This document shows, in pieces, positions 6,800 to 26,870 of a stretch of 64,000 nucleotides of DNA (its first letter is position 1; every line of letters begins with the position of its first letter). The position numbers and the translations under genes were made by a program. This DNA is from Streptomyces akebiae. Its GTDB lineage: Bacteria > Actinomycetota > Actinomycetes > Streptomycetales > Streptomycetaceae. The notes under the pieces were generated by a model that did not search any database, was not told where the DNA came from, and worked only from the letters and a program-made list of their open reading frames with translations. The stretch spans positions 2,542,001 through 2,606,000 of the forward strand of contig NZ_CP080647.1 in the NCBI RefSeq assembly GCF_019599145.1, read 5' to 3'.

Positions 6800-8584
6800 T
6801 CAGTTCGTACGAGTGTTGGACAAATGCGGCCCCACGTAGCCGATTATCACCTTGCCCGTGGCGCCCGCTGTGTCGTCATAGAAGTGAACGCGAGGCGCAA
6901 TCCTTCCTTTGTTGTCGATCTTTATGTGGGCTTCCATGAACACCATGCCCGAAGTATCGACTTCCGCCGGTACAGGGAGCATTCGCTGCTGCCGGAACTT
7001 CTTGTCGTTGCGCACGGAATCGGACTCCACCATGGCCACACGCGTCACCGGATAGGTACGCATGCCCTGTGGGGAAGCCTCGCAGAAATCGCGAAAGGTT
7101 CCGTCGAATCCCTGGTCACTGGCACTGCTCGACCCGTAGGAATCCAGCGCCAGCAGCGCGTCCCACACCTTCGACGCCCAGGTCGAGCTCTTCATGTCGT
7201 CGTCGAGATCCTCGGCCTTGCTCGTGTCGTAGGTCAGAACGAGATGATTCATCCGCTCGTGCACGCGTTCGTTCAGTTCGGCGAAGGACATCGGTGTCGA
7301 CTCTTCGACGGGAGGTGTGTAGGCGTCCTCGGCCCGGCCGGCCTCCACCAGTCTCTGCTGAAGAAACGCCACTTGATGGCGCAGGGCGGACAGCTGCGCC
7401 TGGGTGGCATCGTGGTCGGCGATCTCGTCCTCGTAGCGGTCGGTCGCGTCCCTCAGCTGCTCATCGAGCGCGCGTCTGCCGCGCTCCGCCAGGTCCCGGG
7501 CACTGGCAGCCTCGCTCAGCTCTTCCAGCGCTTTGTCGATCGTCTCGTTCGCCGTGTTCAGCTGAGCACGCAGGGAGTCAACGGTCTCATTCCCCAAGGA
7601 CTCAGCCGTCTGGGACCGCGCCGCGCGCAGACCCTTGAGGACCTCCTCGATACCTGGAAACGCGGGCTCGGCGAGCAGGGCGGGCTGCGGTGTGGTGGCA
7701 GCGTGCTGGCGCGGGTACCTGGAGATCCGGATGTCCGCGTTACGGAAGGTCGGGTCGCTGAGCCGCCGGTACGTCAGCAGGCGGTGCCGCCGACTGTCCT
7801 CGGCGGAGCCGAGGACGACGCCCGGAAGATACGTGCGTATCTGGCCGGGGAACACGTCGTGCCGGTCTCCGGCCGCGTCGCGGAAGGCGGGGACGGCCTC
7901 CCGTTCCAACCGGAACACTGAGGCGATTCCGACCAGATTCCTGACAACCCTGGTCAGCAGTCCCTCCCAGGCCGGATCGTCGTGGGACGGCTCCGCCACG
8001 AGGACCAGTGGCAGTTGTCGCGTGGGATCGGTGAGGGCGGACGTGAGCTGGCCGACCGAGTCGGGGCCGATCAGGTGAGGCGCCGTGGAGAGCCGAATCG
8101 TCCCATCCGGCACGGTGAAGTGATCGAGAATCTCACGGACAAGCCGAGGAGGGACCGGTGTGGACTGCCGTCTGCCCGGGCTGGGGTAGTGCTCCAGGTC
8201 GACACCGACGTACGCCGCTGTCGACTCACGGTCGACTGCGGACGTGAGTGTCGTCTGCCAAGTCCCCTCCTGCTTGTCCTCCTTGCTCTCCCGTAGACGA
8301 AGCCGCAGCGCGGTCTGGTGGCCGTCGGTGTCGTAGGAGTCGGTCACGGTGAGGGTGTAGGTGTCCGTGAGCCGATGGACGCCCGAAGAGAGTTGCGTCG
8401 CCAGGTCCTTGCTCTCCAGCCAGGAGGTGAAGCACGAGCGGGCCCCGGCGAACATCTGCTCCTGCTCGTCCTCGGGGATCGGTAGTACCGCCCGGTAGAC
8501 CAGCGGGTTCTCAGCACGCGGCTCGTCTCGGACGAACCCGCTCCGACCCCATCGCGGAACCTGCGGCGCGGGCTTGCGGCTGGG
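6800..8584 (-). CDS. Large coiled-coil protein of defence island
   Basis: A protein of about 594 residues with no named family. The N-terminal 300 residues are mixed alpha/beta with a beta-rich segment (RLTDTYTLTVTDSYDTDG) and LPLVLVAEPSHDDPAWEGLL. Residues about 325-430 (RAQLNTANETIDKALEELSE and onward) form a long coiled coil. The C-terminal 150 residues include the segment RIAPRVHFYDDTAGATGKVI and end VGPHLSNTRTN. There is no signal peptide or membrane helix. The ATG at 8584 is chosen because the upstream 34 residues (possible start 8686) are Arg/Ser-rich and non-conserved in look. It follows the interrupted membrane gene on the same strand and may belong to the same defence operon. Role unknown. 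Confidence 0.7.
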   Translation of the reverse strand, partial: PSRKPAPQVPRWGRSGFVRDEPRAENPLVYRAVLPIPEDEQEQMFAGARSCFTSWLESKDLATQLSSGVHRLTDTYTLTVTDSYDTDGHQTALRLRLRESKEDKQEGTWQTTLTSAVDRESTAAYVGVDLEHYPSPGRRQSTPVPPRLVREILDHFTVPDGTIRLSTAPHLIGPDSVGQLTSALTDPTRQLPLVLVAEPSHDDPAWEGLLTRVVRNLVGIASVFRLEREAVPAFRDAAGDRHDVFPGQIRTYLPGVVLGSAEDSRRHRLLTYRRLSDPTFRNADIRISRYPRQHAATTPQPALLAEPAFPGIEEVLKGLRAARSQTAESLGNETVDSLRAQLNTANETIDKALEELSEAASARDLAERGRRALDEQLRDATDRYEDEIADHDATQAQLSALRHQVAFLQQRLVEAGRAEDAYTPPVEESTPMSFAELNERVHERMNHLVLTYDTSKAEDLDDDMKSSTWASKVWDALLALDSYGSSSASDQGFDGTFRDFCEASPQGMRTYPVTRVAMVESDSVRNDKKFRQQRMLPVPAEVDTSGMVFMEAHIKIDNKGRIAPRVHFYDDTAGATGKVIIGYVGPHLSNTRTN

Positions 8585-8745
8585 CATCACCAAGGGAGTG
8601 GGTCTCAACGCTGACCTCCGGCTTGATCGACGAATGGAAGCGATACCCCGCACACCAGTGATTCGCGAGCTTGAGAGCCACAGCAACCTTCGAGGTTTCC
8701 GGCAGCCTCACACCGCTCACCGAGTGAGTGCGAGCGCGACAACCC

Positions 8746-10056
8746 CTACACGGGCAGCGCGGGGAACACGACCACCGAGCCGTCCGTGTCGCGTGCGATC
8801 TCGATCGCCACGTCCGTCGCACGGCCGGTGGTCGTAACACCGTCGCCCAGCTGGCGAATCTGGTGTGCCACGCGCATCAGGCGGTCCACTTCGTTGCTCG
8901 TGAAGACGGGGCGCCTTCCGCTCGGGCGTGCCAGCTCCAGCGCCGACAGGCGTACCAGGACACCGGCGATGCCCGACTCCAGTTCATCGAGGCGCTGTTG
9001 GTCGCGCTTGAGTTCGCGGGTGAAGTTCTCGAACACGTTGTCGGGGTCGCTCTGGGCATGCTCGACAGCCTGCAGAATGATGACCCGACGCTGCAGCGCG
9101 ATGGCCAAGGCGGCGATTTCGAGATGCGTGCGGAACGTGCCACCGTGGTCGTCGATGCCGGGGAACGACTTCACCAGCGTCGCGATCTCAACGGCCTTGC
9201 CGTCGGGCAGTTCGTCGAGTGCGTCCTGCCATCCACCAAGACGGTCGGCGGCGTCGATCAGCGCCTTGCCGATGGCATGCGCCGCCGAGTCCAGTCCCAG
9301 CGAGACGCCGAGCTTGCCCTAGTCGAGCAGGATGGCGGTGGCTTTGTCGATGGCGAAGCGGCAGCCGTCGAGTTCGCGGCGCTCATCCTTGAGCTTGTCT
9401 TCCTGCAGCTGCTCCAGCAGTTCCGTGATGCGTTCGATGGCCTGCTGGCGCTGTCGGTCGGCATGCGCGCTCACCCCCACCGCCACGGCCATGAGCACGA
9501 GGGGCGCGGCCACGGTGAGCGCCGCACTGCCGGCGACCGCGACGCCGGCGGTGGCACCGGCGCCACCGGCCGCGCCTGCGGCTGCCGCTGGACCGACCGG
9601 CACGAGCTTCGCCTGGCTGACGATGCACCCCGTCGAGTTCACCAGTGCCGAATAGACCTCACCGTTCGCCCCCTTCACCGCCATCGGGCGCACGACGCCC
9701 TGCGCGACCTGGGCGGCCACCTTCGCCGGAATCACCATGCGATACAGGCACTCGCCGGAGGCGGTCGCCTTGGCAGCGGCGGAAGAACCTTGTGCCGTCT
9801 GCGTGATGAGCTGCGACAGGTGCTGCGCCAACGGACTCGCGGCATCGAGCGAAATGCCTCGGCTGCGGTCGACCTTTTCGGGCAGCGGATGTGCCTCAAG
9901 TGTGGCGATCGGCTGGTCGGCCAGGGCGGCCAGCACACCGCGGAGTTCAGTCAGACGCTCAGGCGTCATCGGCTCGTCCCCGATCAGTGCGGGCACCCGG
10001 ACATCGCCGGTCGCCAGCGTCCACACCGGCACGATCGCCTTGCTGTCGTCAGTCAT
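8746..10056 (-). pseudogene. Membrane-anchored coiled-coil protein split by amber codon
   Basis: A coding frame of about 436 codons interrupted by a single in-frame TAG at 9319-9321. The first part starts at ATG 10056 after a good AAGGGGAGA site (MTDDSKAIVPVWTLATGD) and contains a Gly/Ala-rich hydrophobic segment, probably two membrane helices (ALTVAAPLVLMAVAVGVSA), then a helix AIERITELLEQLQEDKLKD. After the TAG the same frame continues as GKLGVSLGLDSAAHAIGKAL to the end FPALPV, helical throughout. CAG (Gln) mutated to TAG by one C-to-T change would explain it. The frame has no other lesion, so the event is recent, an error, or a read-through site. The start is 46 bases after the SF1 helicase stop, in the DrmA/DrmB operon. 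Confidence 0.75.
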
Positions 10057-10102
10057 CGTCTCCCCTTGTTCTTCCCACATGTTCGTAGCCTCGGTGGCGT
10101 CG

Positions 10103-11224
10103 TCACCGCATCTGCACCCAGCCGTGCAGCCCCTCCAGATGCCGCGGCAACCGGCCTCCCTGCCAACCCAACACCAGCCGCTCCCGCGCACGGGTGATCA
10201 TCACGTAGTACGCCATGCGCAGCGTCGCAGACGTGGGGTCGGTGGCGGAGTCGGATTCCGCGTCGGCGACGACGACGGTGTCGAAGTCGAGGCCCTTGGC
10301 GCTGGCGCGATGGACGAGGACGACGCCCGGGCGGGCCAGGTCCAGGTCGCGGTAGCGGCCGGAGGAGGCCGCCGAGCTGTAGAGCTGGGGCTCGCGGGCG
10401 AGACCGGCCCGTTCGAGGCGCCTCATCAGATCGGCCGCGGTGGGCAGATGGTTGACGATCACGCCGATGCGCTGCCGCGGCTGTCGGGCGGCCATGGTCA
10501 CGATGTCGTCGGCGAGATCCTTGTTGCCCATGTAATGGCGCACCACGGGCAGGGAGCCGCCGCGCGAGGGCAGGTCGGGGCGGGCGCCGCCGGTGCGGAA
10601 GTACTCGGCGAGGGAAGCGATTTCGCGGGTGTTCCGGTGGTTGCCGGAGATCTCGGCACGTGCGGTGGAGCGGCCGAGGTTGTCGGTGATCTCGGTGAGG
10701 GTGGAGTTCGTCTCGGTGAGGCGCTGGCACTCGTCGGCGAAGACCGTGACGGAGGCGGCGGCGAGGCGGACCAATCGGTAGAAGCCCGGCGGCAGGTCCT
10801 GGCCCTCGTCGATGACGAGATGGGGGGTCGCCGCGTCGTCCTCCCCGAGGGTGGCGGCGGCTCGACGGGTGAGTTCCGCCCAGTCGAACCAGCCGTCCTC
10901 GGTGCGCGGTGCGTCGTGGCCGAAGCGGCGATGGATCCAGGTGTGTCCGGTGGCGGCGTCGACGGGCGCGCCCGGGACAGCGAGGCCCTGGAGGGTTCCG
11001 CGCAGGAGCTGGCGCAGGAGGTTGGAGCGCGAGATCAGGAAGGTGTGGCGGCCGGTGAGGGCGAGGTGCACGGCGCGGTGCGCGGCAAGCAGGCTCTTGC
11101 CGCTGCCGGGCGGGCCGCTGACGACGTAGTTGCCGGTCAGCGGCAGGGCGTCCAGGCAGTCGCGCTGGGCCGGGGTGAGGTCGGGGTGGAGCACGGGGGT
11201 GTTCGCGGTGGTCATGGGTGTCAT
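10103..11224 (-). CDS. Compact SF1 (UvrD/Rep-like) helicase
   Basis: An ATP-dependent superfamily 1 helicase-like protein of about 373 residues, much shorter than UvrD. It shows Walker A (VSGPPGSGKS, near residue 37), a Walker B variant HLVIDEGQDLPPGFY near residue 140 (UvrD has DExQD), a region resembling motif IV (EISGNHRNTREIA), and the C-terminal motifs KGLDFDTVVVADAE and YVMITRARERLVLGW. It lacks the large 1B/2B insertions of UvrD. The start at 11224 overlaps the DrmB stop (ATGA), so it is translationally coupled to DrmA-DrmB. In canonical DISARM this place is taken by the phospholipase-D protein DrmC; an SF1 helicase here is a departure. Confidence 0.85.
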   Translation of the reverse strand: MTPMTTANTPVLHPDLTPAQRDCLDALPLTGNYVVSGPPGSGKSLLAAHRAVHLALTGRHTFLISRSNLLRQLLRGTLQGLAVPGAPVDAATGHTWIHRRFGHDAPRTEDGWFDWAELTRRAAATLGEDDAATPHLVIDEGQDLPPGFYRLVRLAAASVTVFADECQRLTETNSTLTEITDNLGRSTARAEISGNHRNTREIASLAEYFRTGGARPDLPSRGGSLPVVRHYMGNKDLADDIVTMAARQPRQRIGVIVNHLPTAADLMRRLERAGLAREPQLYSSAASSGRYRDLDLARPGVVLVHRASAKGLDFDTVVVADAESDSATDPTSATLRMAYYVMITRARERLVLGWQGGRLPRHLEGLHGWVQMR

Positions 11225-13104
11225 CCCTGGGCGATGGCGGCGGCGGACTCGCGGCTCGCGGTGAGGACGTCGGTGAAGTAGCCGGGGACCCGGGCGGAGC
11301 CGACGACCAGGGCACGGTCGAGCAGGGTGTTGCCGGTCTGGCAGCTCGTCTCGGGCAGCAGGGTGCAGGCGTGGCAGGCGGCTCGGTTGAGGTTGCCGAA
11401 GCCCTGGCCGGTGTGCTCGGCGCACAGCGGGTCGGCGGAGCACCAGGCGGCCGCCTCCAGCATCCGGATGAGCGTCTCGGCGAAGTGCGGTGCCTCACCC
11501 TGCCGGACCAGGCCGCCGAGCGTTCCCTCCGCGTCGCCGGCGGCCGTGTAGATCAGAAGTCCGTGCTGGCCGTACTCGGGGCGGCCGTAGACGCGCTCGC
11601 GCAGGCTGGCGGTGGTGTAACCGGAGTCGAAGGAGAGCTGGCGGATGAGGAGGTGGGCGACGGTGTGCAGGAGCAAGAAGCGGGGCGAGAGCTCGCTGCC
11701 GGTCGTCTCGGCGAGCTGTTCGTCGCGGAACGACGCGTCGAGGTCCGTACGGACACCGTGGACGTGGGCCCGTACGCGGGGGTCGTTCTCCCAGGCGGTG
11801 AGGCGCTGTTCGTCGAGGGTGAGGACGATGCCCTCGCCGTATACCTCGGTCGCGGGCAGCCAGCGCAGACGGCCGCTGGTGTCGGCTCGTACGAGGGTGC
11901 CGCCCGGGGAATGGCGCCGGAAACCGGTCAGCGCCCGGACTTCGCGCAGACGGTCGGCCAGGACGATGCCGCCGATGTGCGTGTCGAGGGTGGCCCAGGG
12001 CTCCTCCTTCTCGCCGTCGAGGCCGAGTCCGCCGCGGCGGATCGCGAACTCCGTTGTGGGTTCGGGGAGTTGTACGGCGTCGAAGGCGTACCACTCGTCG
12101 CGGCTCAGGTCGACCTTTCCCGACTTCCCGAACTCGTGCCGGTCGGGGGACGGCTGCGCCGAGGCGCCGGTGGCCTCCGCGACGAGCTGGTCGATAAGGC
12201 TGTCCGGGGCTTCGGTGTCCTCCCTGATCATGTCGCGGAAGATGTCGGCCCTGGGCTTGCCGAGTGCGTCGAGCAGGAGCGGCCAGTAGTCGTGGCCCAG
12301 GACGGCCTCCGCCAGGTTCCGCTCCGCGCGCGGGGCTTCGGCGGTCTGCGGGATGTCGAGAGCCGAGTAGACGACCGGGTAGTAGACGTTTCCGGCGGTG
12401 CGCTGCACGTTGTGCACCTGCTGGCCGCAGGAAGTCCTCGCGTCCCAGTGCTGCCAGGGGTTGCGGCCGGAACAGCGTCCGCCCTGGGGTCCGAGGATGT
12501 CGAGGAGGTCGCGTTCGGCGCCGCAGGGCTTGCCGCCCTCCCTGATCGCGTCGCAGCGCACCGAGAGCGCTTCGAGTCCGGAGGCGCGGTCGGCGACGCG
12601 GAAGCTGAGCCGGCGCGCCCTCCATGCCTGCTTCGACTCGGAGCAGGAGTCGCGCAGTTCGGGCGCGAGCTTGAAGTGGGCCCAGTACCACCAGTCGACG
12701 TCGTCGAGGTGTCCGTCCGGGCAGATGCGGACGAACCGCATCGGGGTGAGACGGGGTGCGGCGGCGCAGGACGTGCAGACGGGTGGCTCGCCCGGCTTCT
12801 CGTGCTCGCGCAGAAAGCGGACCATGGCCCGGCAGGAGCCGCAGAACAGCCAGCCGGGGAAGCGCACATAGGGCACGCCGGGACGATCAGCCTTGTCGTA
12901 GCGGTCGTTGAGGGTGTGGGGCGCGGCGTAGAAGCCCTTGACGCCGAGACGGGTGGCGAGCCGTTCAGAAGGGACCGAGGTCTTGAGGTCCGGCCACCTC
13001 TCGATACCGGTGGCGACGAACGACTCTCCCTGGACGTCGAGTACCGCGCCCACGCCGAACGGCAGCACGGTCTGCGCCTGGCGGACCCGGAGTTTGCGCT
13101 TCAC
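11221..13104 (-). CDS. drmB: DrmB-like DUF1998 protein
   Basis: A 627-residue protein of the DUF1998 family that accompanies DrmA in DISARM phage defence. It opens VKRKLRVRQAQTVLPFGVGA and has Cys-rich metal-binding segments: CGSCRAM and CTSC near residues 80-110, and CPDGHLDDVDWW. The C-terminal DUF1998 region runs LLLHTVAHLLIRQLSFDSGY to the final CHACTLLPETSCQTGNTLLD. The GTG at 13104 overlaps the DrmA stop (GTGA), so synthesis is coupled. In DISARM, DrmA and DrmB act together on incoming unmodified DNA. Family assignment is firm; membership of a full DISARM system is not, because DrmC and a DISARM methylase are absent. Confidence 0.87.
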   Translation of the reverse strand: MKRKLRVRQAQTVLPFGVGAVLDVQGESFVATGIERWPDLKTSVPSERLATRLGVKGFYAAPHTLNDRYDKADRPGVPYVRFPGWLFCGSCRAMVRFLREHEKPGEPPVCTSCAAAPRLTPMRFVRICPDGHLDDVDWWYWAHFKLAPELRDSCSESKQAWRARRLSFRVADRASGLEALSVRCDAIREGGKPCGAERDLLDILGPQGGRCSGRNPWQHWDARTSCGQQVHNVQRTAGNVYYPVVYSALDIPQTAEAPRAERNLAEAVLGHDYWPLLLDALGKPRADIFRDMIREDTEAPDSLIDQLVAEATGASAQPSPDRHEFGKSGKVDLSRDEWYAFDAVQLPEPTTEFAIRRGGLGLDGEKEEPWATLDTHIGGIVLADRLREVRALTGFRRHSPGGTLVRADTSGRLRWLPATEVYGEGIVLTLDEQRLTAWENDPRVRAHVHGVRTDLDASFRDEQLAETTGSELSPRFLLLHTVAHLLIRQLSFDSGYTTASLRERVYGRPEYGQHGLLIYTAAGDAEGTLGGLVRQGEAPHFAETLIRMLEAAAWCSADPLCAEHTGQGFGNLNRAACHACTLLPETSCQTGNTLLDRALVVGSARVPGYFTDVLTASRESAAAIAQG

Positions 13105-16100
13105 TTTCCTGCTCCCGTCACGGTGATCTGGCACTCGCGGTCCACGCTGCGCATCGAGTTGAGGGTCTCCCACAGGCCGTAACGCTGCTCGAAGCCCTTG
13201 AGCAGGTTGTGCTGGCCCTTGCCCTGACTTCGGTAGTAGAGGTCCTTGCCCTCGGCGGCGGCGGTGTCGGCCTGCCGGTACCAGTCGTCCAGGAGGTAGC
13301 CGAGTTCCGCTCGTACGTCGGTGCGTACGGCGTCCGCGTCGGCTCCTGTGGCGCCGTGCTCGGCGGTCGCGGCGCGCTCGGCGAGGGCGTCGGCGATCTT
13401 CCCTGCCTCGTCCTTGTGGTCGGTGATCCGTCCGGCCCGGTTCTCGGCGGCCAGGCCGAGCCGGTGGCGGACCAGGATGACGAGCGCGGCGTGCAGGGCA
13501 CGGCGGCGGGCGGGCAGGGACCAGGGGGTGACGCTGGCGGGTTCGACGTAGCGGTAGAGCGCCCGGTGGTAGTCCATGAAGGTCTCGTAGTGGGACCGGT
13601 CGCGCGGGCGCGTGGCGTTGAAGTAGGTGACGACGAGTCCGGGCACCTGGTGGCGGCCGACGCGGCTGGTGGCCTGGATGTACTCGGCGGTGGTCTTGGG
13701 CTGCCCCTGCATGAGCATGTAGGCGAGCCGCTTCACGTCGACGCCGACGGAGAGCATGTTGGTGCACGGCAGGAAGGACACCGACCGGGGGTCCGTCCAG
13801 GGCTTTTCGAGGCGGTCGAGGAGGATGGGCTGATCGGCGCGCTTCACGCTGCTGTCGAGCTGCTGCACCTGTTCGCCGACCAGCTCGCGCGTGCCCGCGC
13901 CCTCGTTGAGGCCCCGGAGCTGGGCGGGGATGTCGTCTCCGGCCGCGGTGACCGTACGGCCGAGCTCACGCAGGCTGTGGTGGTAGGCGACCAGGGTCCA
14001 GTAGTCGTCGCGGTGTTCCTCGGGGAGCTGGTGAACGCCCTGGAGCATGGCCGCGGTGGTGGCGACGGCGCCTCGGCCGGCGGTGTGGCCCTGTGCCATG
14101 ACGCCGAGGTAGAGGCGGCCGGGGCTTCCGGTGTCGGGGACGGCGAAGAAGCTGTCGCGGGCGTCGAGCCCGGACGGCGGGAAGAGCTGGACGTCCTGGT
14201 GGTGCAGGGCTCGGACCTGTTCGGCGGAGCGCCGGATGGTGGCCGTGGCGGCGACGATCTTGGGCGGGCGGCCGTCCGGGCCGGTGCACATCTCCAGGAT
14301 GGCCGCCTCGTAGAGGCCGACCGTGGTGCCGAGCGGTCCGGTGAGCAGGTGCAGCTCGTCCTGGATGATCAGGGACGGGGGCCGGTGGCCGGTGCCCGCG
14401 CCGAAGAGGCTGCCGGAGTCGGGCTCCCAGGCGAGCCGGGCGAACTTGTCGACGGTGCCCAGGACGAAGGTGGGCGGATCCTCGTAGAGGTGCTGGTCGA
14501 CGACGGCGACGGGCAGGAGGTCGTGGAAGGCGCACTCGTCACGGGTGCAGTGGAAGGCGAACTCGCCCGGCTCGGCGCGGACTCCGTAGTCGGAGCGGAC
14601 GCTGGACTTGGTGGGCGGCAGGATGCGGGTGCCGCACCACGGGCAGCGGTCGAGAATGAAGACGTCCTCGGGGTGGCTGGCCTCGCGCTGCTCGTCGAAG
14701 GCGACTTTGGCCGCCTCGAACTTGTTCGGGGTGGTGGTGTCGCCGACCCACAGGCCGATGGTGATGGGTTCGCCGCCGAGGCCGAGTTGGGGTTCGGTGC
14801 GGCGAAGGTGCTCCAGGGCGCAGATCGTGGTGGCGGCGCGCTGGAACTGCTGGGTGGTGAGCAGACTGAGGGTGTAGCGGCTGAGCACGGTGGTCCCGCC
14901 GCCTTCGCCGCGGATCCGGCGCAGGGCGATGGTGAAGGCGGCCAGGAGCAGATACGCCTCGGTCTTGCCACCACCGGTGGGGAACCAGATCAGGTCGGTG
15001 GTCTCACGGTCGCGGTGTCCGGGTTCGGCGACGCCGTCGAGGGCGAGGAGGAAGAAGGCGAGCTGGAACGGACGCCAGGTGGCCTCGGGGTCGACGGGCG
15101 GGTCGAGTGCCACGGGGTCGGAGCGGTGCCATCTCTGCCCGGCCTGGTCGGGGGCGGAGTGCCGCATCTGCAGCAGCATGGCGCGCTGGGCGATACGGAA
15201 GGCGTCGAGAAGTTCGGGGCGGTCGGGGTCGCACAGGGTACGCACACCGGCCTCGATGCGGGTGACCGCCTGGCGGACGCGGTCGAGGATCCGCTCCGCG
15301 GCCTCGCGCCCCCAGGGCGGCACCTCGACGGATCGCTGGCCCACGTACCAGGCGTGGTACGAGGCGGCGAACTCGGCGAGTTCCTCGCGGAGTTGGTCCC
15401 TGCCGACGGCTGGGTCGGCCAGGTGGGCGATCGTGAGCGCGGGGGCGTCGAGCGGGCCGCCGGCCCGGACGGCGGGTACCTCGGCGCGCGGCAGAGCTTC
15501 GCAGGTGAGGAGTTCGACATCACCGTGCTCGCCGCGGTCCTCGCGGACGGCGCAGCCGTGGCCGACGGCATGGGTGACGACGTGCCGGTACTGAAGGCGC
15601 AGTTCGCGTTCCTCGGGATCGCGACTGGCGAGCCGGACGCTGGGATACGGCAGCACGGCGCCCTCGGCGGGGCGGACGCTGAGACGGCACTGGAACAGCA
15701 TGTCGTCCCAGTTCGGCGCCTTGTCGTCGGCACCGTCGTGGCGTTTCTCGTTGACCAGGGCCACGGTGATGAGCGTGCCCGCGCCGTAGGAGCGGCGGGT
15801 CAGCTGGATCTTCGCGCGGCGGTCGAAGACGGGCACCTCCTCCCGGTCGGGGCCGATGGTGTGTGTCTCGGCCGTGAGGGGGATGCGCTGCCAGCGCCGT
15901 CCGCGCCCGGCTTCGCCTCGCTGCGTCTCGTAGCGGGCGGCAGCACAGCTGACCTCGACGTCCACTGCGTCGGTGTAGAAGCTGATGCCGAGCGACGCGG
16001 GCAGCCAGCTGTTCGTCTCGGGCACGGGGTCGGCGGCCGGGTCCACATCGGGGGCGTCCTGCTCGGCGCCGGGTGCCTCGGGGTCGTCGGCGGCGAGGTC

Positions 16101-16250: not shown

Positions 16251-16308
16251 GTGCGTTCCTTCGGACGAGAGTGGAGAGTGGAACGGGGGCGGCGGTGTGT
16301 GCGCGGGT

Positions 16309-17886: not shown

Positions 17887-17952
17887 AGTGCCCCCCACTT
17901 GAGCGTTCGAGCACCCGGACTTCCCTCGAAGGGTTGGCCGGACACAACAAAC

Positions 17953-17982
17953 ACTCTAGAACCGGCACGTTTACACTGTCAA
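17953..17982 (-). promoter_or_regulatory. Predicted promoter of sigma factor operon
   Basis: On the minus strand TTGACA (17982-17977) and TAGAGT (17958-17953, TAnnnT type) are separated by 18 bases, about 65 bases before the sigma-factor start. The AT-rich divergent region supports it. Confidence 0.5.
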
Positions 17983-18019
17983 CGCGTTTCATTGATTTGT
18001 TTACTTACCGTAGGATCGC

Positions 18020-18032
18020 TTGACGACGTCAA
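18020..18032. promoter_or_regulatory. Palindrome TTGACGACGTCAA in divergent promoter
   Basis: A 13-base perfect palindrome (6-bp arms, 1-base centre) between the sigma-factor gene and mcrB, 53 bases before the mcrB start. Its left arm resembles a -35 box, so a protein bound here could control mcrBC and possibly the divergent operon. The binding protein is unknown. Confidence 0.4.
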
Positions 18033-18084
18033 CAGGTAGGCTGGGCGCGTTGGCCCAGGCCTCGCGACTCCCGGAAGGTCACCC

Positions 18085-19908: not shown

Positions 19909-21188
19909 CCGGGGGGTCCATGACCGGGTCCGCGGCCGTGCCCGCGGCCGAGGTGTCGCTGCGCGAGTACGGGCCCGCCGTCTCCGTCCCCCTGGGCGCC
20001 GAAGCCGGACAGGCCCTCGCTGCCTCCGGCATCCTCCAGAGCGCGACCCCTGATCCGCGCCGGAACGGGCACTGGCTGCTGCGGGCGGGCAGCCGGGTCG
20101 GCGCCGTGCGCATGCCTGAAGGTCCGGTCGTACGGATCATGCCCAAGACCTCGGTGAGCCGGCTGTTCTTCCTCCTCGGCTTCAGCCTCGACCCCGCCCG
20201 CGCCTGGCGTGACAGCCGGGAAGGCACCATCGACACCGGCGCGTACGCCGACGTCGTCCCCGCACTCGCCCACGCCGTGGAGCGGCAGATGGACGGGGCA
20301 CTGCGGCGGGGGGTCCTCCAGGGCTACCGGGAAGTGGAGGAGTCCGCGCTGGTCGTGCGCGGCAGACTGCGAGAGGCCGAGCAAATCCGGCGACACTTCG
20401 GCCGTACGCCGCCCGTGGAGATCGCCTACGACGCGTACACCGCCGACACGGCCGAGAACCGGATCCTGCGCGCCGCCGCCGAGCGGTTGCTGCGGCTGCC
20501 GGACGTTCCCGGTCCCGTCCGGCGGCGCCTCGCCCATCAGCGCGTACGTCTGGCCGACGCGCTGCCGTTGATACGAGGGCAGGAACTGCCGCGTTGGCAG
20601 CCCTCACGCCTCAACTCCCGCTACCATCCCGCGCTGCGGCTCGCCGAAGCAGTCCTGCACGGAACCTCTCCGGAGCACCGGCCGGCCGGGGCCGAGCCGC
20701 TCGCCATGGACGGCTTCCTGCTCGACATGAACAAGCTCTTCGAGGACTTCGTGACCGTCGCCCTGCGCGAGGCGCTCAGGGAGCACGGCCTGACCGCACG
20801 CCTCCAGGACCCCCATCACCTCGACATCGCGGGTCTCGTGGGCATGCGTCCCGACCTGGTCGTCCGCACCGGCGACGGCCGTACCCCGCTCGCCGTCGTC
20901 GATGCCAAGTACAAGGTCGAGAAGGCAGACGGACTCCTCAACGCCGACCTTTACCAGGCGCTCGCGTACGCCACCGTGCTCGGTCTGCGCGAGGCGCACC
21001 TGGTGTACGCGGCCGGACGACAGCCCGTGCGCTTCCACGAGGTGCGGGGAACGGCGGCGGGACCGGACGGACGGGGAGTGCGGATCCACCAGCACAGCCT
21101 CGACATCTCTCGCGAACCGGAACAACTCCTCACAGCTTTCCGGGAGATCGCCGGACAACTGGCGTCCGGAAGAAAGGAAGGGACCTGA
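19905..21188 (+). CDS. mcrC: McrC-type endonuclease subunit
   Basis: A 427-residue McrC family nuclease partner of McrB. The GTG start overlaps the mcrB stop (GTGA). The N-terminal beta domain includes VGAVRMPEGPVVRIMPKTSV, followed by the conserved helical segment ADTAENRILRAAAERLLRLP. The PD-(D/E)xK active site is MRPDLVVRTGDGRTPLAVVD followed directly by AKYK near residues 313-335 (D, then D-x-K). The core MDGFLLDMNKLFEDFV is the usual McrC helix before it. Its stop overlaps the next start as TGATG, so McrB, McrC and the RelE-helicase are made from one message. Confidence 0.9.
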   Translation: MTGGSMTGSAAVPAAEVSLREYGPAVSVPLGAEAGQALAASGILQSATPDPRRNGHWLLRAGSRVGAVRMPEGPVVRIMPKTSVSRLFFLLGFSLDPARAWRDSREGTIDTGAYADVVPALAHAVERQMDGALRRGVLQGYREVEESALVVRGRLREAEQIRRHFGRTPPVEIAYDAYTADTAENRILRAAAERLLRLPDVPGPVRRRLAHQRVRLADALPLIRGQELPRWQPSRLNSRYHPALRLAEAVLHGTSPEHRPAGAEPLAMDGFLLDMNKLFEDFVTVALREALREHGLTARLQDPHHLDIAGLVGMRPDLVVRTGDGRTPLAVVDAKYKVEKADGLLNADLYQALAYATVLGLREAHLVYAAGRQPVRFHEVRGTAAGPDGRGVRIHQHSLDISREPEQLLTAFREIAGQLASGRKEGT

Positions 21189-23332
21189 TGCCCCGGCTCG
21201 CCTTCGCCCAGAGCTTCTGGGACGGCTACGACACCTTGGAGAAGCCGGTCCGGGCCGGAGTGCGCAAGGCCATGGCGAAATTCCAGGCCATGAGCGCCGC
21301 CGAACTCAACGCGGACAAGGGACTGCACCTGGAGTCCGTCCAGAACGCCCGTGACCCGCGGATGCGCACCATTCGCATCACCGACTTCTGGCGCGGGGTC
21401 GTTCTCGCCCCGGACGACGGCAGCGACATGTTCCTCCTCGTCAATGTCCTGCCGCACGACGATGCCTATACCTGGGCGGCGAAGCGTCTGTACAGCGCGA
21501 ACTCCGCGACACGGGCCCTGGAGGTGCGCAACGCCGTCGCCCTGGACGAGCTGACACCGCTGTACGAGACGGCCGCACGCACGGCTCCCCGGCTGCTGTT
21601 CGCGGACGTCTCCGACGGCACACTGCGCGAACTCGGTATCGACGACCAGGTACTGCGCGCCGCGCGTTCACTGGTGGACAAGGCTCAACTGGAGGCTTTC
21701 TCCACTCTGCTGCCGGAGGACCAGCTGGAGGTGCTCCAGTACCTCGCCGAGGGCTTCAGCCCGGAAGAGGTCTACCGGGATGTCGTGGCGGTACGTCGCC
21801 CCGCCGACGCGCCCGCCGAACCGGTCGAGGACCTGGCCACGGTGATCACCAACACGTCCGCCCGCATCCGACTGGTCACCGGGCCACGGGAGTTGGAGGA
21901 GATGCTGGCGAAACCGTTCGCTGCCTGGCGCGTCTTCCTCCACCCCTCCCAGCGGCGCGTCGCCTACCGCACCTCGTACGGCGGTCCCGTCCAGGTCACC
22001 GGGGGACCCGGCACGGGCAAGACCGTGGCTGCCCTGCACCGGGTCAGGCATCTGCTCGACCGCTCCGAGGACGGCCGCATCCTGCTCACCACGTACACGA
22101 ACGCGCTCGCCGCCGGACTGCGCGAGATGCTCGGCCTGCTCCTCGACGAGGACGAGAAGCTGCTGGCGCGGGTCGATGTGACGACGGTCGACGCCTGTGC
22201 GAACGGCGTCGTGCGCGCGCACTCGGCGGCCGTGCCCAAACCGATCGGGGACCGGGAACAGCGGCAGTTGTGGGAGAAGGCGGTCAGGCAACTCGACCTG
22301 CCGTTCACCGCCCAGTTCCTGGCCCAGGAGTACCGGCACGTCGTGCTCGGCCAGAACCTCCGCGACCTCGACGCCTACCTCGGCGCCAGCCGCCGTGGCC
22401 GCGGTACCGGTCTCGGTCCCGCGCGCCGGCGGGAGGTGTGGAGCGGCGTGGAACGGTTCGAACAGTTGCTGCGCGACCGCGGCGAGACCACACACCTGCG
22501 CATCTGCTCCCGCGCGGCCGAGCTCCTGGCCGACGCGCCGACTCCGTACGCCCATGTCGTCGTCGACGAGGCACAGGACCTGCATCCCGCGCAGTGGCGG
22601 GTGCTGCGCGCCGCCGTCTCCCCCGGCCCCGACGACCTGTTCGTCACCGGCGACCCGCATCAGCGGATCTACGACTCCCGGGTGTCGCTGGGCTCGTTGG
22701 GCATCGCCACGGTCGGCCGCAGCTTCCGGTTGCGCGTCAACTACCGCTCCACGGAGGAGATCCTCGCCTGGTCGGCCCGGCTCCTCGCATCCGTCACCGT
22801 CGACGCGCTGGAGGGCGAGGGAACGGACTCGCTGGCCGGCTACCGCTCCCTGCTCCACGGCAGCCGCCCTCGGGTGCGGGGCTACGCCACCCGGCAGGAG
22901 GAGACCGAAGCGCTGGTGGAGCGGGTCCGAACCCTGCTCGCCGAGGGCCTCGCACCGCACGAGATCGGGGTGTGCGCACGCTTCAACCTCGCCCTGGACA
23001 CGGCGGAGGAGAAACTGAAGGCCGCGGGCATCCCGGTACTACGGGTCAAAGGGCAGGTCACGCAGGTCACTCAGGGATCCGAGGGGGTGCGGCTGGCGAC
23101 CATGCACGCGATGAAGGGGCTGGAGTTCCGGGCGGTGTCCGTGCTAGGTGTCGCCGAGGGCACCGTCCCGTTCGCCCGTGAGATCACTCCGCGTGAGGCG
23201 GACCCGCTCCAGCACAATGCCGACCTGCTCCGTGAGCGCTGTCTGCTCTTCGTCGCCTGCACGCGTGCTCGCGAAACCCTGAGTGTCACGTGGAGCGGGA
23301 CCGCGAGTCCCTTCCTTCCGCCCGTCGTCTGA
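21188..23332 (+). CDS. SF1 helicase with RelE/ParE-like N-terminal domain
   Basis: A 714-residue UvrD-type helicase. Residues 1-100 resemble a RelE/ParE toxin fold: KPVRAGVRKAMAKFQAMSAA, then LHLESVQNARDPRMRTIRIT, FWRGVVLAPDDGSDMFLLVN and LPHDDAYTWAAKRL, with the final HDDAY typical of the fold. The helicase follows with Walker A VTGGPGTGKTVAALH near residue 274, Walker B AHVVVDEAQDLHPAQW near 457, motif III FVTGDPHQRIYD, motif IV LRVNYRSTEE, and the C-terminal LATMHAMKGLEFRAV and LFVACTRARETLSV. ATG 21188 overlaps the mcrC stop. This fusion is a known actinobacterial form often annotated simply as UvrD-like; whether the toxin-like part cleaves RNA or acts as an adaptor is unknown. Its link to McrBC here suggests an accessory role in restriction. 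Confidence 0.85.
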   Translation: MPRLAFAQSFWDGYDTLEKPVRAGVRKAMAKFQAMSAAELNADKGLHLESVQNARDPRMRTIRITDFWRGVVLAPDDGSDMFLLVNVLPHDDAYTWAAKRLYSANSATRALEVRNAVALDELTPLYETAARTAPRLLFADVSDGTLRELGIDDQVLRAARSLVDKAQLEAFSTLLPEDQLEVLQYLAEGFSPEEVYRDVVAVRRPADAPAEPVEDLATVITNTSARIRLVTGPRELEEMLAKPFAAWRVFLHPSQRRVAYRTSYGGPVQVTGGPGTGKTVAALHRVRHLLDRSEDGRILLTTYTNALAAGLREMLGLLLDEDEKLLARVDVTTVDACANGVVRAHSAAVPKPIGDREQRQLWEKAVRQLDLPFTAQFLAQEYRHVVLGQNLRDLDAYLGASRRGRGTGLGPARRREVWSGVERFEQLLRDRGETTHLRICSRAAELLADAPTPYAHVVVDEAQDLHPAQWRVLRAAVSPGPDDLFVTGDPHQRIYDSRVSLGSLGIATVGRSFRLRVNYRSTEEILAWSARLLASVTVDALEGEGTDSLAGYRSLLHGSRPRVRGYATRQEETEALVERVRTLLAEGLAPHEIGVCARFNLALDTAEEKLKAAGIPVLRVKGQVTQVTQGSEGVRLATMHAMKGLEFRAVSVLGVAEGTVPFAREITPREADPLQHNADLLRERCLLFVACTRARETLSVTWSGTASPFLPPVV

Positions 23333-23352
23333 TCGGCAGCCCGGCTCGGTCC

Positions 23353-25023
23353 TCATTCCTCCGGCGTCAGGGCGCCCGTTGCGAGACCGTCACGGGCGAC
23401 CTCGGCGAGCTGCCGACTCAGCTCGTCGACCTTGCGCATTCCCTCCTCGAACGCGGACAGGGCCCGGAAGGCAGAGCCGTACCGACGCTGCTCGTCGATG
23501 CCCATACGGGGGATGCGTGAGCCCCTGCCGTCAAAGCGGTAGGTCCCGCTCGCGCTCGTGGATCTGCGGACGTTGGCGGAGCTGCGCAGGAAGCCCTGCA
23601 GATAGTCCGTGTCGAGCTGCTCGCTCGCCGAGACCGGCTCCGGACCGTCGTACGCCACGAGCCCGGCGCGGGCGAGATCCGCGACGCTGGTGGTGGCTCC
23701 GTCCAGTGACCCCGGCCCGCCGCCCGTCGCCAGCTCGGGCAGAAGGGCGGCGAGTCGACGGATCTGGTCCTCCAGTTCCTTGCGCAAAGCAGCGTACTCA
23801 CCGGGGTAGTCGCGATGCCGGGAACGAAGATGGCTCCCGGGTGTCAGGTCGACGGTGTCGTCGAGGAGTTCGATCAGCGGTACGTCGGCAACCTGGTCGG
23901 GGCGTGGTTCCAGGTCCCCGTCGGGGCTGTTGTCCGTCAGGTCGACCATGCGCACCGTGTGCTGCGTGTCCGCCCCTCCCGGACTCTCGGGACGCTGCAG
24001 ACACCACAGATGGACAGGCAGGGCGTGCGAGGTCGCCGTACCTGGCGGCAGGGCGACCACTTGGCGCACGATGCCCCGGCGCACGAGTTCCGATCGGATG
24101 CGGCGACCTGCCTTGCGGTAGGCGACCGAAGCCGGCATGACCATGAGGACCTGGCCGCCGGCCACGGTGTGGGCGTAAGCGTGCTGAAGCCACGCGAGCT
24201 CACCTTCGGCCTTGGACGGGGTGCCGAGGTCCCAGCGGGCGTCGAGCAGCAGTTCCTCCCGCCCCCACTCGGTCACGCCGGCCGGAGGGTCGCAGACGAC
24301 CAGATCCGCCTTGAGGTCCTGCCATTCATCCGCGCGCAGGGAATCGCCGGCCACGATGCGCACGCCCGATCGGCCCAGCAGGTCGGCGCGGAGCTGCGCG
24401 AAGCGGGCACTGTCGGTATCCAGCTCCTGGCCGCGGCAGAGAATCCCGGCCTCGGAAGCGACGGACAGGAGCAGCACCCCGATTCCACAGGCCGGATCGA
24501 AGACCGTGGCATCGGACGGCAGCTCGGGAGCGAAGTGGCACACGGCACGCACCACACGCTCGGAAGTCACCTGGTCGGACCCCGCGCGCCGAGCGGAGTC
24601 CATGAACCGTTCGGTCAGTCCGTTCACAAGGTCGACGGGCGATCCGGTTCGGGCGAGCTCGCGTACCCGGGCGGCGACGTCGTCCGGCAGCTCCGGTCCG
24701 GTTCGGTCGGCCAGCGCCGCGGCGACCTGCGCCAGGCCCGCGACCATCTGCTCCCCGTAGGCGGCCCTCATGGCCTGCCACAACTCGACCTCGGGTGACA
24801 CCTCCTGGCCCTTGCGTTGCCGGTCCAGCCATTCCTGGACCTCCGCGAGTGCGTAGAGCGGACTGTTCGCGCCACCTCCCGCCGGCGCGGGGAAGTCGTC
24901 GTAGCGCCGACGCCAGTTGGAGACAGCGGCCCGAGTGACTCCGGCCAGCCGGGCGATCTCGGCGCCGGTGACCAGTGGGCCGACCGATGGAGCGGCATTG
25001 TCCGTCATAGCCTCAGCGTACAC
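23353..25023 (-). CDS. N6-adenine DNA methylase-like protein with HTH N-terminus
   Basis: A 556-residue class I DNA methyltransferase-like protein. The N-terminus is a helix-turn-helix of the MerR/excisionase kind (TGAEIARLAGVTRAAVSNWR, then PLYALAEVQEWLD). The methylase core has motif I VFDPACGIGVLLLSVASEAG and motif IV as VVCDPPAGVTEW, where NPPF/Y or DPPY would be expected; the missing aromatic residue may impair catalysis. A C-terminal HsdS-like target-recognition part is possible (SASEQLDTDYLQGFLRSS). The GTG at 25023 has AGAAGG 9 bases upstream; ATG 25008 is the alternative. It converges on the RelE-helicase gene (20-base gap) and is divergent from the DUF6119 gene. It could protect host DNA or act as a regulator. 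Confidence 0.82.
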   Translation of the reverse strand: MYAEAMTDNAAPSVGPLVTGAEIARLAGVTRAAVSNWRRRYDDFPAPAGGGANSPLYALAEVQEWLDRQRKGQEVSPEVELWQAMRAAYGEQMVAGLAQVAAALADRTGPELPDDVAARVRELARTGSPVDLVNGLTERFMDSARRAGSDQVTSERVVRAVCHFAPELPSDATVFDPACGIGVLLLSVASEAGILCRGQELDTDSARFAQLRADLLGRSGVRIVAGDSLRADEWQDLKADLVVCDPPAGVTEWGREELLLDARWDLGTPSKAEGELAWLQHAYAHTVAGGQVLMVMPASVAYRKAGRRIRSELVRRGIVRQVVALPPGTATSHALPVHLWCLQRPESPGGADTQHTVRMVDLTDNSPDGDLEPRPDQVADVPLIELLDDTVDLTPGSHLRSRHRDYPGEYAALRKELEDQIRRLAALLPELATGGGPGSLDGATTSVADLARAGLVAYDGPEPVSASEQLDTDYLQGFLRSSANVRRSTSASGTYRFDGRGSRIPRMGIDEQRRYGSAFRALSAFEEGMRKVDELSRQLAEVARDGLATGALTPEE

Positions 25024-25050
25024 GGACCGGCACCTTCTTTCCAGAGTCGA

Positions 25051-25073
25051 CTACGTTGACAATGTACACATGC
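25051..25073. promoter_or_regulatory. AT-rich divergent control region
   Basis: The 140 bases between the methylase and DUF6119 genes hold TTGACA (25056-25061) running into the palindrome TGTACA. TTGACA could be a -35 box for the plus strand, but no TAnnnT -10 is correctly spaced. On the minus strand TACATT fits a -10. Assignment is uncertain. Confidence 0.3.
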
Positions 25074-25163
25074 CGATGCCACTCTCATCCGTGTACTTGA
25101 TTCGCCCCTGAACCCGCACGCCGCAGAGCGTGTCCCGGTCACAGTTGTCCACGGAGGCACCCC

Positions 25164-26870
25164 TTGGCATCGAACACCGCAGTACGCACCGTTTACCGAC
25201 TGTCCGGCGTCACCCCCACCACGGAAGCCATGCTGTACGCCCTCGACCTCGAACTTCTGGACAGACTCGGTGCCGATCCGCATTTACCGGAGGCGCTCGG
25301 GGTCCCGGCCGTGTACATCACCTGCGGAATGGAGCACACCGAGGCCCCTTGGTGCGAACCCATGTCGCGCAGCACCGGCATCACGGTCAGCGAGAGTGTC
25401 CGGCGCACCGCCGCCGTGCTTCTGCTCGCCGTCGACGACACGGTGTACGCCATCGGCTGTGACCAGGGGTACCGGCTGATCCCCGACCACCTCAAGGACA
25501 GGCGCTTCGGCCTCTCGTTCGCCATCCGGCAGATGGACCCGAGCCTGATCCGCGGAGCCGTGTCGAGGTCTCTCGGGCAGGCACGCACCGACATCTCCTT
25601 GGTTCCGGGCGGCGCCCCGGTCCCGCTGCTGGGCATCCGTGACCACTCGCGCATCGTGCGCAGCCTGGGCGGATACCTCGACGACCTGCCGCTCACCCGG
25701 TCGCGCTACTCGCGCGGAAAGGCCGTGAGTGCCCAGGGCGGGTGCGGACTGCGGATCGCCCTCGGAGTCGAGCCCGAGGCCCTGCTCTCCGACCTGCGGA
25801 CCATCACCAGAATCTGCCGCGAGGACATCCCGAACCAGGAACTGGAGTTCGTCGACCACATCGTCCCGGTCAGCGCTCCGACGACCCTCGACGCGCTCGA
25901 CGAGGCCCTGGACGACCGTCTCGGCCGACCCGCCGACGGAAGCATCTCCGTCTGTGTCCCCTCCGAACATCACATGGCTTACGCGGAGGCCACCACGTAC
26001 ATGACGCAGATCAACAGCAGCAACGGTGCCCTGCGCTCCGACGACTTCGACCTCGGGTACGTACTCACCCGGGCCCGCCTCGCACAGCCTGGGCAACGCC
26101 TCAAGGCGCTGCGCGAGGGAACCGTGACCCTTGCCAGGGACCGCCGAGTGAGGGCCGCCGACACTCTCGCCGTCACCAGCGCGCTGACGTGGCTGGAGAC
26201 CGGCGTCTCGCTCGGCCCCAGACGGTTCTTCCTGATGGACGGCGAGTGGTACGAGGCAGGGGCCGCCTATGTCGAAGAGTGCCAGGCCGCCGTACGGGCG
26301 CTGTTCTCACCTTCACCCTCCGTCTCCCTTCCCTCCTGGGCGGACGGTGAGTCGGAGAACACCTACAACAACAGGGTGGCTGCCGACCGGCCCGACTGGC
26401 TCTGCCTCGACACCAAGAACGTCGCCAATCCTCTCCGGCCCAGGGACCAGGTCGAGATCTGCGATCTGCTCACGCCTGACGGCACCCTGATCCTCGTCAA
26501 GCGCGCAGGCGGTTCCGGTCCGCTGAGTCACCTGTTCAGCCAGGCCAGGGTGGCGGTGGAACTGCTCCAGGAGTCCGCCCAGGTCCGCGCGGACTTCACC
26601 GCGAAGGTGGCCGGGCTGAGTGGCGGCGCACGCCTGCTTCCGAATGACTACACGCCCAAGCGGATCGTCCTTGCGATGCTCCTCAAGAAGCGCGAGAACC
26701 TGACCCCGGATTCCGTCTTCGGGTTCTCCCAGATCACCATCGCCCAGACCTCGAAGGCCCTGGCAGCACGCGGAGTGACTGTCGAGGTCGTCGGCATCCC
26801 GCAAGTCGATACTGACCCACTTTCTCCACCTTTGCACGACGCGGGAATGCGTACGGCAGTCCCTGGCTGA
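25164..26870 (+). CDS. DUF6119 / TIGR04141 sporadically distributed protein
   Basis: A 568-residue protein of the TIGR04141 (DUF6119) family, known for patchy occurrence in defence and restriction islands but without an assigned activity. The diagnostic C-terminal block is present: DRPDWLCLDTKN near residue 407, QVEICDLLTPDGTLILVKRA and GSGPLSHLFSQARVAVELLQ. The N-terminal MASNTAVRTVYRLSGVTPTT and a Gly-rich YLDDLPLTRSRYSRGK region are also typical. The conserved D-x-K and H residues in the C-terminal block hint at an enzyme core. The start is TTG 25164, 6 bases after GGAGG, which decides it. It is divergent from the methylase and is the last gene of the island. Confidence 0.85.
   Translation: MASNTAVRTVYRLSGVTPTTEAMLYALDLELLDRLGADPHLPEALGVPAVYITCGMEHTEAPWCEPMSRSTGITVSESVRRTAAVLLLAVDDTVYAIGCDQGYRLIPDHLKDRRFGLSFAIRQMDPSLIRGAVSRSLGQARTDISLVPGGAPVPLLGIRDHSRIVRSLGGYLDDLPLTRSRYSRGKAVSAQGGCGLRIALGVEPEALLSDLRTITRICREDIPNQELEFVDHIVPVSAPTTLDALDEALDDRLGRPADGSISVCVPSEHHMAYAEATTYMTQINSSNGALRSDDFDLGYVLTRARLAQPGQRLKALREGTVTLARDRRVRAADTLAVTSALTWLETGVSLGPRRFFLMDGEWYEAGAAYVEECQAAVRALFSPSPSVSLPSWADGESENTYNNRVAADRPDWLCLDTKNVANPLRPRDQVEICDLLTPDGTLILVKRAGGSGPLSHLFSQARVAVELLQESAQVRADFTAKVAGLSGGARLLPNDYTPKRIVLAMLLKKRENLTPDSVFGFSQITIAQTSKALAARGVTVEVVGIPQVDTDPLSPPLHDAGMRTAVPG

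Follow-up and report, generated by a model that had tools for sequence, protein, structure and literature searches.

A shared palindromic operator in Drm, Mcr and YprA operons points to a putative defence regulon of Streptomyces

Two divergent operons of Streptomyces akebiae, one of the Drm type and one of the Mcr type, carry the same palindromic operator in their promoters, and the operator recurs before a third operon that encodes a fusion of a Ser/Thr kinase with a YprA-type helicase. Judged from sequence, it is fairly probable that these operons belong to an inducible, multi-arm Streptomyces defence regulon with its own sigma factor (Sig), probably governed by a degenerate methylase with a helix-turn-helix (HTH), and that the regulon has up to three effector arms: Sig-DrmA-DrmB-helicase, McrB-McrC-UvrD and kinase-YprA/SNF2/PglX. 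The stretch analysed, here called the window, is 64,000 nt of S. akebiae DNA starting at contig position 2542001, and the coordinates of its parts are window positions. A sequence-only reading had described sigma-DrmA-DrmB-helicase genes facing mcrB-mcrC-helicase, with methylase-like and DUF6119 genes beside them, and the gene order, strands and overlaps of both operons were confirmed. Sig, DrmA, DrmB and a superfamily 1 (SF1) helicase are encoded on the minus strand opposite McrB-McrC-UvrD on the plus strand. Overlaps of 1-4 bases join DrmA/DrmB, DrmB/helicase, McrB/McrC and McrC/UvrD, and 58 bases separate the end of Sig from DrmA. The motor and nuclease motifs of DrmA, the SF1 helicase, McrB, McrC and UvrD are intact. 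The main features are as follows.

10103..11224, minus strand: small SF1 helicase, gene 4 of the Drm arm, with Walker A GPPGSGKS and DEGQD
11221..13104, minus strand: DrmB, a DUF1998/MZB protein (NF038324 400 bits, cut-off 240; MZB)
13101..16250, minus strand: DrmA-type helicase of the YprA family, 1049 residues (PADLOC DrmA 669 bits)
16309..17886, minus strand: Sig, sigma-70 protein of 525 residues, first gene of the Drm arm (Pfam sigma-70 regions 2, 3 and 4)
17969..17982, minus strand: operator in the Sig promoter, TTGACAGTGTAAAC, overlapping the -35; the -10, TAGAGT, is at 17958-17953
18020..18033, plus strand: operator in the mcrB promoter, TTGACGACGTCAAC-AGG-TAGGCT
18085..19908, plus strand: McrB, with an N-terminal DUF4357 region, an AAA+ GTPase (AAA_5) and the MNTAD signature
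19905..21188, plus strand: McrC, with an intact PD...DAKYK nuclease motif (PF10117, E=2.4e-50)
21188..23332, plus strand: UvrD-family helicase, with 110 N-terminal residues of unproven, possibly RelE-like fold
23353..25008, minus strand: HTH and N6-methylase fold with degenerate motif IV (DPPA), the proposed island regulator
25056..25069, plus strand: operator with one mismatch, TTGACAATGTACAC, lying between the genes for the methylase and DUF6119
25164..26870, plus strand: DUF6119/TIGR04141 protein, divergent from the methylase gene (365 bits)

The palindrome, TTGAC-N3-GTMAAC, stands at a fixed spacing in both divergent promoters as well as before the third operon. On the Mcr side it takes the form TTGAC-N3-GTCAAC-N3-TAnnnT in 23 of 29 loci (the window and L004-L031). 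The Sig-side form, TTGAC-N3-GTAAAC-N10-TAnnnT, is found in 18 of the 29 and, with a spacing of 9, in one more (19/29 for the Sig type); at this distance from the -10, it overlaps the Sig -35. When the Sig-mcrB spacers of 16 loci are aligned, the Mcr-side site is exact in all 16 and the Sig-side site in 14, with L010 and L024 differing. The suggestion that the two operons share a control region is thus borne out by one palindrome placed at fixed -10 distances in both promoters, and by arms that co-occur and co-diverge. A promoter of the PafBC/RecA-NDp type, compared by its layout, was considered for the Mcr side on account of the spacing there and was dropped once the link between the palindrome and the HTH methylase emerged.

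Within the 10.5 Mb S. akebiae genome (G000), TTGACNNNGTMAAC is confined to four locations, namely each of the two island promoters, the region before kinase-YprA and one site elsewhere. A hand count over nine genomes (G000, G013, G049, G057, G124, G166, G273, G296 and G360), taken where all matches were listed and the arms lay on a main contig, with other genomes left out, puts 21 of 26 operator places at arm promoters. Promoters were also scanned for a match to the operator of at least 9 of 10, which was found for Sig in 30/35, YprA in 26/30, the methylase in 29/37 and McrB in 27/47; the methylase promoters match at 8 of 10 or better in 37/37. The starts of control genes (DrmA, DrmB, SF1 helicase, UvrD, SNF2 and PglX) carry an operator of at least 9 of 10 in 3 of 220 cases. 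Two genes were left out of this control count: McrC (2/47 at 9 and 34 at 8), whose upstream sequence is conserved mcrB coding sequence, and DUF6119 (12/13 at 9), whose promoter region is common with the methylase.

The third operon lies 4-17 kb left of the window, and the island extends leftward beyond the window start.

2524934-2538391 of the S. akebiae genome (L078 2934-16391): third operon, with Ser/Thr kinase-YprA helicase fusion, SNF2 ATPase and PglX-like methylase, the domains being profiled in this copy

The kinase-YprA protein has about 2100 residues and consists of an N-terminal Ser/Thr kinase, a YprA-type helicase and an MZB domain, and the PglX-like methylase has an intact NPPW. We searched 392 Streptomyces genomes with DrmA, McrC and a 750-residue segment of YprA, and compiled a co-occurrence table by hand at cut-offs of at least 67% for DrmA, 55% for McrC and 65% for YprA. 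DrmA is present in 34 genomes, McrC in 65 and YprA in 52, with DrmA and McrC together in 32, DrmA and YprA in 30, McrC and YprA in 50 and all three in 29. The Fisher value for DrmA with McrC is 1.7e-26; the genomes are related, and because of this kinship such values overstate independence. At a DrmA identity of at least 80%, linkage to McrC is found in 14 of 15 cases (4.5-7.1 kb) and to YprA in 14 of 15 (17-33 kb), the fifteenth (G099) lying at a contig break, on a contig of 3 kb; the prospect, raised by the sequence-only reading, that the two arms nearly always occur apart fails for the island's own DrmA clade. The corresponding figures are 14/19 and 13/19 at 67-79%, and 0/10 for both at 50-66%. 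Of 53 YprA cases, 48 are linked to McrC (within 80 kb) and 27 to DrmA. Linkage of all three follows one arrangement per clade, YprA..DrmA-McrC in the first (14/14 cases) and DrmA-YprA..McrC in the second (11/11). In the six genomes examined from the approximately 70% DrmA clade, Sig and mcrB are separated by 5-30 kb of variable cargo, and in three of these (G379, G296 and G124) the cargo contains kinase-YprA followed by the SNF2 ATPase and PglX-like methylase.

A DrmA protein scan of named genomes gave 29 loci, and 20 of these have the Drm and Mcr arms adjacent and divergent (mcrB and mcrC being partial in L022, and no methylase standing beside UvrD in L020), so the divergent pair does not reflect chance. 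Other genes separate the arms in L016, only UvrD is kept in L030, L015 is without the Mcr arm, and L018 and L032 are fragments. Microtetraspora (L027), Nocardiopsis (L028), Kitasatospora (L029) and Herbidospora (L031) have a Drm arm and Sig, with no Mcr arm in the DNA stretch examined; Sig is divergent from DrmA in L027, L028 and L031. Among the distant Sig-Drm arms, too, those examined (L027-L029, L031 and L053-L062) have the SF1 helicase behind DrmB. The 24 McrC matches at 69% identity or more comprise 14 linked to DrmA, one with DrmA on another contig and nine without DrmA in the genome. Because of these nine, and of the distant and other-genus Drm arms without McrBC, the arms look, on sequence comparison, like modules of one regulon rather than one obligate machine. 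The proposal that the two operons may be one system accordingly stands in part: the common operator and the linkage favour it, but the arms are modular and a third operon outside the window is under the same operator.

It is also conceivable, if rather unlikely, that the site is a defence hotspot at which independent systems gather and borrow a pre-existing host operator with no joint function. The highly variable cargo between the arms, the McrC matches whose genomes have no such DrmA and the solitary arms of other clades would all fit a hotspot, but the near confinement of the operator to the arms (three of its four places in S. akebiae) and the constant arm order within each clade do not, and nor does the co-divergence of the arms, which across 14 loci gives r=0.69 for DrmA-McrC with 0/500 permutations as high.

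The candidate regulator of the proposed regulon is the methylase-family protein, the only arm protein in which an HTH was seen (residues 14-40; Pfam gives a weak HTH_28 match only). Its motif IV reads DPPA, DPPV, DPPS, DPPT or EPPA, with no aromatic residue, in 33 of 33 loci. Among the best 120 of 4645 database matches, motif IV is DPPA/T/V/S/G, the S-adenosylmethionine (SAM) motif is kept and the recognition helix is identical in 120/120; the catalytic form, [DNS]PP[FYW], is found in 0/120 of these closest homologues listed. In type I methylases whose structure is known, this position reads NPPF or NPPY. The gene, of the N6-methylase family and adjoining UvrD, had been called methylase-like, but its product has probably lost catalysis along with the motif IV aromatic and does not methylate.

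Paralogues whose HTH is similar, encoded away from the island, have TTGAC-N3-GTnnA palindromes within 300 bp upstream. This pattern was fixed on L118-L121, and a TTGACnnnGTnnA site was then found upstream at 20/20 further resolved loci, or 24/24 overall, the test covering 34 loci (L118-L121 and 30 more) of which 24 were resolved, against a background of 17/767 genes. The site is also present in L131, which was resolved separately, and in L149 and L150, where the wrong frame was chosen; seven others were unresolved. Motif IV of the 24 resolved paralogues is NPPF in nine, which look active for that reason, and NPPS in two, and none of the usual kind was found in 13 more distant ones. By their sequences, the off-island proteins look like self-regulating methylases of the genus, and the island palindrome is probably read by the HTH methylase with the degenerate catalytic site. 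One off-island HTH methylase lies in the S. akebiae genome itself (L153, G000:C1:6063517), and a TTGACnnnGTtcA-like palindrome stands upstream of this gene and of L118-L152.

Several observations weigh against the regulon or its proposed regulator. Conservation of the HTH alone does not single out the island protein because the paralogues share it, and the AlphaFold model of the methylase, with a predicted local distance difference test (pLDDT) score of 49, was not used. About half of the YprA stretches were chosen for carrying the operator, and its presence before YprA in 15 of 16 stretches selected in this way is no measure of frequency; eight YprA promoters fetched regardless of the site, several of them because exact sites were missing, give three full matches and six at 9 of 10 or better. 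The operator is lacking in McrB promoters of the 57-66% identity clade, to which all 20 McrB promoter misses belong except that of G284. Nine McrBC loci in genomes without this YprA and methylase (G227, G246, G076, G222, G002, G337, G118, G178 and G238) have no operator in the stretch, a different context that is not a fair test. Drm arms at 50-66% identity and those of other genera have Sig without an operator, McrBC or the methylase nearby. The co-divergence figures include species descent, for which there is no control, and the SF1 helicase fits DrmA of the same arm more weakly (r=0.35, 30/500 permutations). G391 has operators at mcrB and YprA and no such methylase at E<=1e-60. In G284, an HTH methylase beside YprA (L109, NPPY) has no such site upstream; this genome keeps YprA (91%) and McrC (86%) and lacks the pseudo-methylase, its YprA promoter has a 9/10 site, no exact operator is found in the genome, and a shared replacement palindrome sought in its promoters was not found.

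G391 and G284 also speak for an alternative that we hold to be unlikely, namely that another regulator reads the palindrome, be it some other protein or Sig in the course of promoter recognition, with the methylase gene as just one target among others. The Sig-side TTGAC, 18 bp from TAnnnT, does resemble a plain -35/-10 pair, but operators persist in 20 kb stretches of G108, G111, G029, G130 and G269 that contain no Sig, the search for Sig being confined to those stretches, and the related palindrome at every resolved paralogue locus argues for a reader of the HTH methylase family. Sig as the operator reader was considered in its own right and is made less likely by the same Sig-less loci.

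The operators, their positions, the promoter geometry, the linkage, HTH conservation and the missing motif IV aromatic are all observed at the sequence level, and from them a working model of the regulon can be drawn. The HTH methylase probably dimerises on TTGAC-N3-GTMAA palindromes and, when bound, probably represses the arm promoters, its own included. Infection would lift this repression, for example by titration of the protein by phage DNA or by depletion of SAM, a possible release signal because the protein keeps its SAM motif. After release the arms would be transcribed, and the housekeeping-like Sig could sustain them if the phage takes the host sigma. Residues 215-515 of Sig align with the SigA structure 8dy7, and 216-515 with HrdB, about 210 residues preceding the aligned part. 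The alignment spans region 1.2 to 4.2 and includes conserved segments that we take to be those contacting the -10 and -35; because of it, we propose that Sig could read housekeeping-type promoters, those of the island among them, when the host sigma is blocked. The arms may then act jointly. From the known families, DrmAB and the SF1 helicases would engage phage DNA bearing single-stranded DNA, McrBC would cut modified DNA, and the YprA/SNF2/PglX arm would act on DNA without PglX marks. The full scheme, in which a methylase without catalysis is a master repressor that senses SAM or phage DNA and frees all three arms, and in which the island sigma keeps them transcribed once the phage has captured that of the host, is a possibility that we put forward tentatively.

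Like DISARM (DrmA, DrmB, DrmC and DrmM), the island has overlapping genes of one operon for a DrmA helicase and a split DrmB of the DUF1998 type, but its Drm operon lacks DrmC and an active methylase and has instead a sigma-70 head gene and an SF1 helicase. DrmA scores 871 bits with NCBIfam DISARM_DrmAS NF038325, whose curated cut-off is 950, and matches the solved DrmA (PDB 7s9v) only from residue 146 of the latter onward; the island protein is thus without about 130 N-terminal residues of the solved one. DrmAB structure and activation are known (PMC9142583). No phospholipase D (PLD) family, and hence no DrmC, was found in the genes scanned between 4007 and 25023, the broken gene 8746-10056 being covered through an intact relative. 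The island is DISARM-related and is not DISARM, membership not being claimed because DrmC and an active methylase, two defining features, were sought and not found. A plain DISARM variant, with DrmAB and an adjacent self-marking methylase beside which McrBC is a mere neighbour, draws on the DrmA/DrmB homology but is improbable given the PLD nuclease not found in the genes scanned, the DrmA score below the DISARM cut-off and the truncated match, and the absent catalytic aromatic of the methylase.

As in McrBC type IV restriction, the McrB GTPase signature MNTAD and the McrC nuclease motif are intact; the differences are a UvrD third gene, the DUF4357 N-terminus, a convergent gene of the HTH-methylase fold and an operator common to other arms. 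The third arm has the order YprA, SNF2/BrxHII-like and PglX-like of ARMADA type I as given in the available text of its report (bioRxiv 2025, PMC12458937), and resembles ARMADA type I and the DISARM-like cassette (eLife 2024, PMC11090510) in its association with canonical McrBC. The frequent position of McrBC beside a DISARM-like YprA cassette is therefore already published in these two papers, but the island YprA is fused to a Ser/Thr kinase, a word absent from the main text of PMC12458937, and neither the Sig-DrmAB-helicase arm nor the common operator is found in the available text of either paper. The claim that no described system has exactly this gene set survives in a narrower form: searches of an open-licence library turned up neither McrBC combined with a Sig-DrmA-DrmB-helicase arm, nor a kinase-YprA fusion belonging to such a set, nor the operator, subscription papers and supplements being outside the scope, whereas McrBC with the YprA cassette is known. 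For the suggested split, in which the Drm arm would act on unmodified and the Mcr arm on modified DNA, a precedent comes from an island of BREX with a type IV system, to judge from the available text (PMC8565348).

Methylases with an N-terminal HTH that repress their own genes are established, as the available text of PMC3874152 describes. The island protein is like them in its N-terminal HTH and in the palindrome at its own promoter, identified here in silico, but its motif IV is degenerate and its site recurs at several defence operons, as far as 35 kb off. Repressors local to defence islands are likewise known, among them RptR (PMC12255303) and BrxR (PMC9122589); as far as these sources were available, they match the proposal of a single local repressor with a palindromic site, but RptR is a small regulator and BrxR a WYL protein, and neither has the methylase fold. 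A sigma-70 protein with a long N-terminus is found in a defence operon in MzaA of MZA, from the available text of PMC9523054, but Sig scores 234.8 bits against the MzaA cut-off of 800, and other mza genes are absent among the PADLOC matches listed.

Relatives of the Drm arm occur in further settings. No DrmA relative was found in phage records at E<=1e-20, and plasmid records gave 54 DrmA matches, one on a Streptomyces megaplasmid at 69%. The 927 kb plasmid of Streptomyces fungicidicus (L154, NZ_CP023408.1 38378-81497) carries a long-Sig Drm arm with an N-6 methylase gene about 15-20 kb off, and a one-mismatch operator in its Sig promoter was spotted by eye. A second sigma-Drm variant (L053-L060, in G088, G247, G165, G366, G322, G090, G073 and G150) consists of a Sig of 1161-1645 residues, DrmA, DrmB and the SF1 helicase, with an apparent cytosine-C5 methylase in 8/8 and a NERD/UvrD-like helicase in 7/8, both labelled from sequence, and with no McrBC of its own type within the stretch. 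In a group at about 42% (L063-L066, L070 and L071), DrmA-DrmB are preceded by a helicase of about 1600 residues with an N-terminus that reads as GHKL-like and by a UvrD or NERD-UvrD helicase; L063 additionally has an SNF2-like gene behind DrmB.

The RelE domain that had been placed on the UvrD-type helicase found no support, with no Pfam match up to E=1, no meaningful PDB match (one at E=0.56) and an AlphaFold model of the N-terminus too poor for use (pLDDT 41). DUF6119 was set aside as a core part: by tblastn, matches of whatever length turned up in 12 of the 29 named loci, many of them limited by the 10 kb flank. Beyond the Drm arm lie two genes that are variable cargo.

6800..8590, minus strand: cargo gene resembling PADLOC HEC-07, its C-terminus NsnC-like
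8746..10056, minus strand: cargo gene with a hydrophobic Gly/Ala-rich segment and an in-frame stop at 9319

Uninterrupted relatives of the latter, of about 436 residues (family f13), occur in ten other loci, and in G111 and G029 f13 stands opposite mcrB in the usual place of the Drm arm with an operator upstream. The window also encodes a Pfam-blank protein of 487 residues with an HETSH stretch (4007-5470, plus strand), near the start of whose relatives in L025 (18562) and L032 (12734) an operator is found, and an AbiEii-like gene with a small partner (5553-6568, minus strand) that recurs beside the island in several genomes. A DnaK/Hsp70-like protein belongs to a recurrent cargo of three to four genes beside the island (families f11, f12, f15 and f16; L004, L006, L011, L013, L014, L016, L019, L023, L030 and L050-L052).

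The island bears on two broad questions: what turns large defence islands on, and whether neighbouring systems act in concert. Two kinds of Streptomyces arm can now be described as well, one of Sig, DrmAB and a helicase that falls outside DISARM, and one whose YprA is fused to a kinase. Through one operator, rare and kept at strict promoter positions, operons as much as 35 kb from one another are joined into a putative regulon for which a candidate regulator can be named, and because both operator and candidate are defined, co-regulation of the arms is directly testable.

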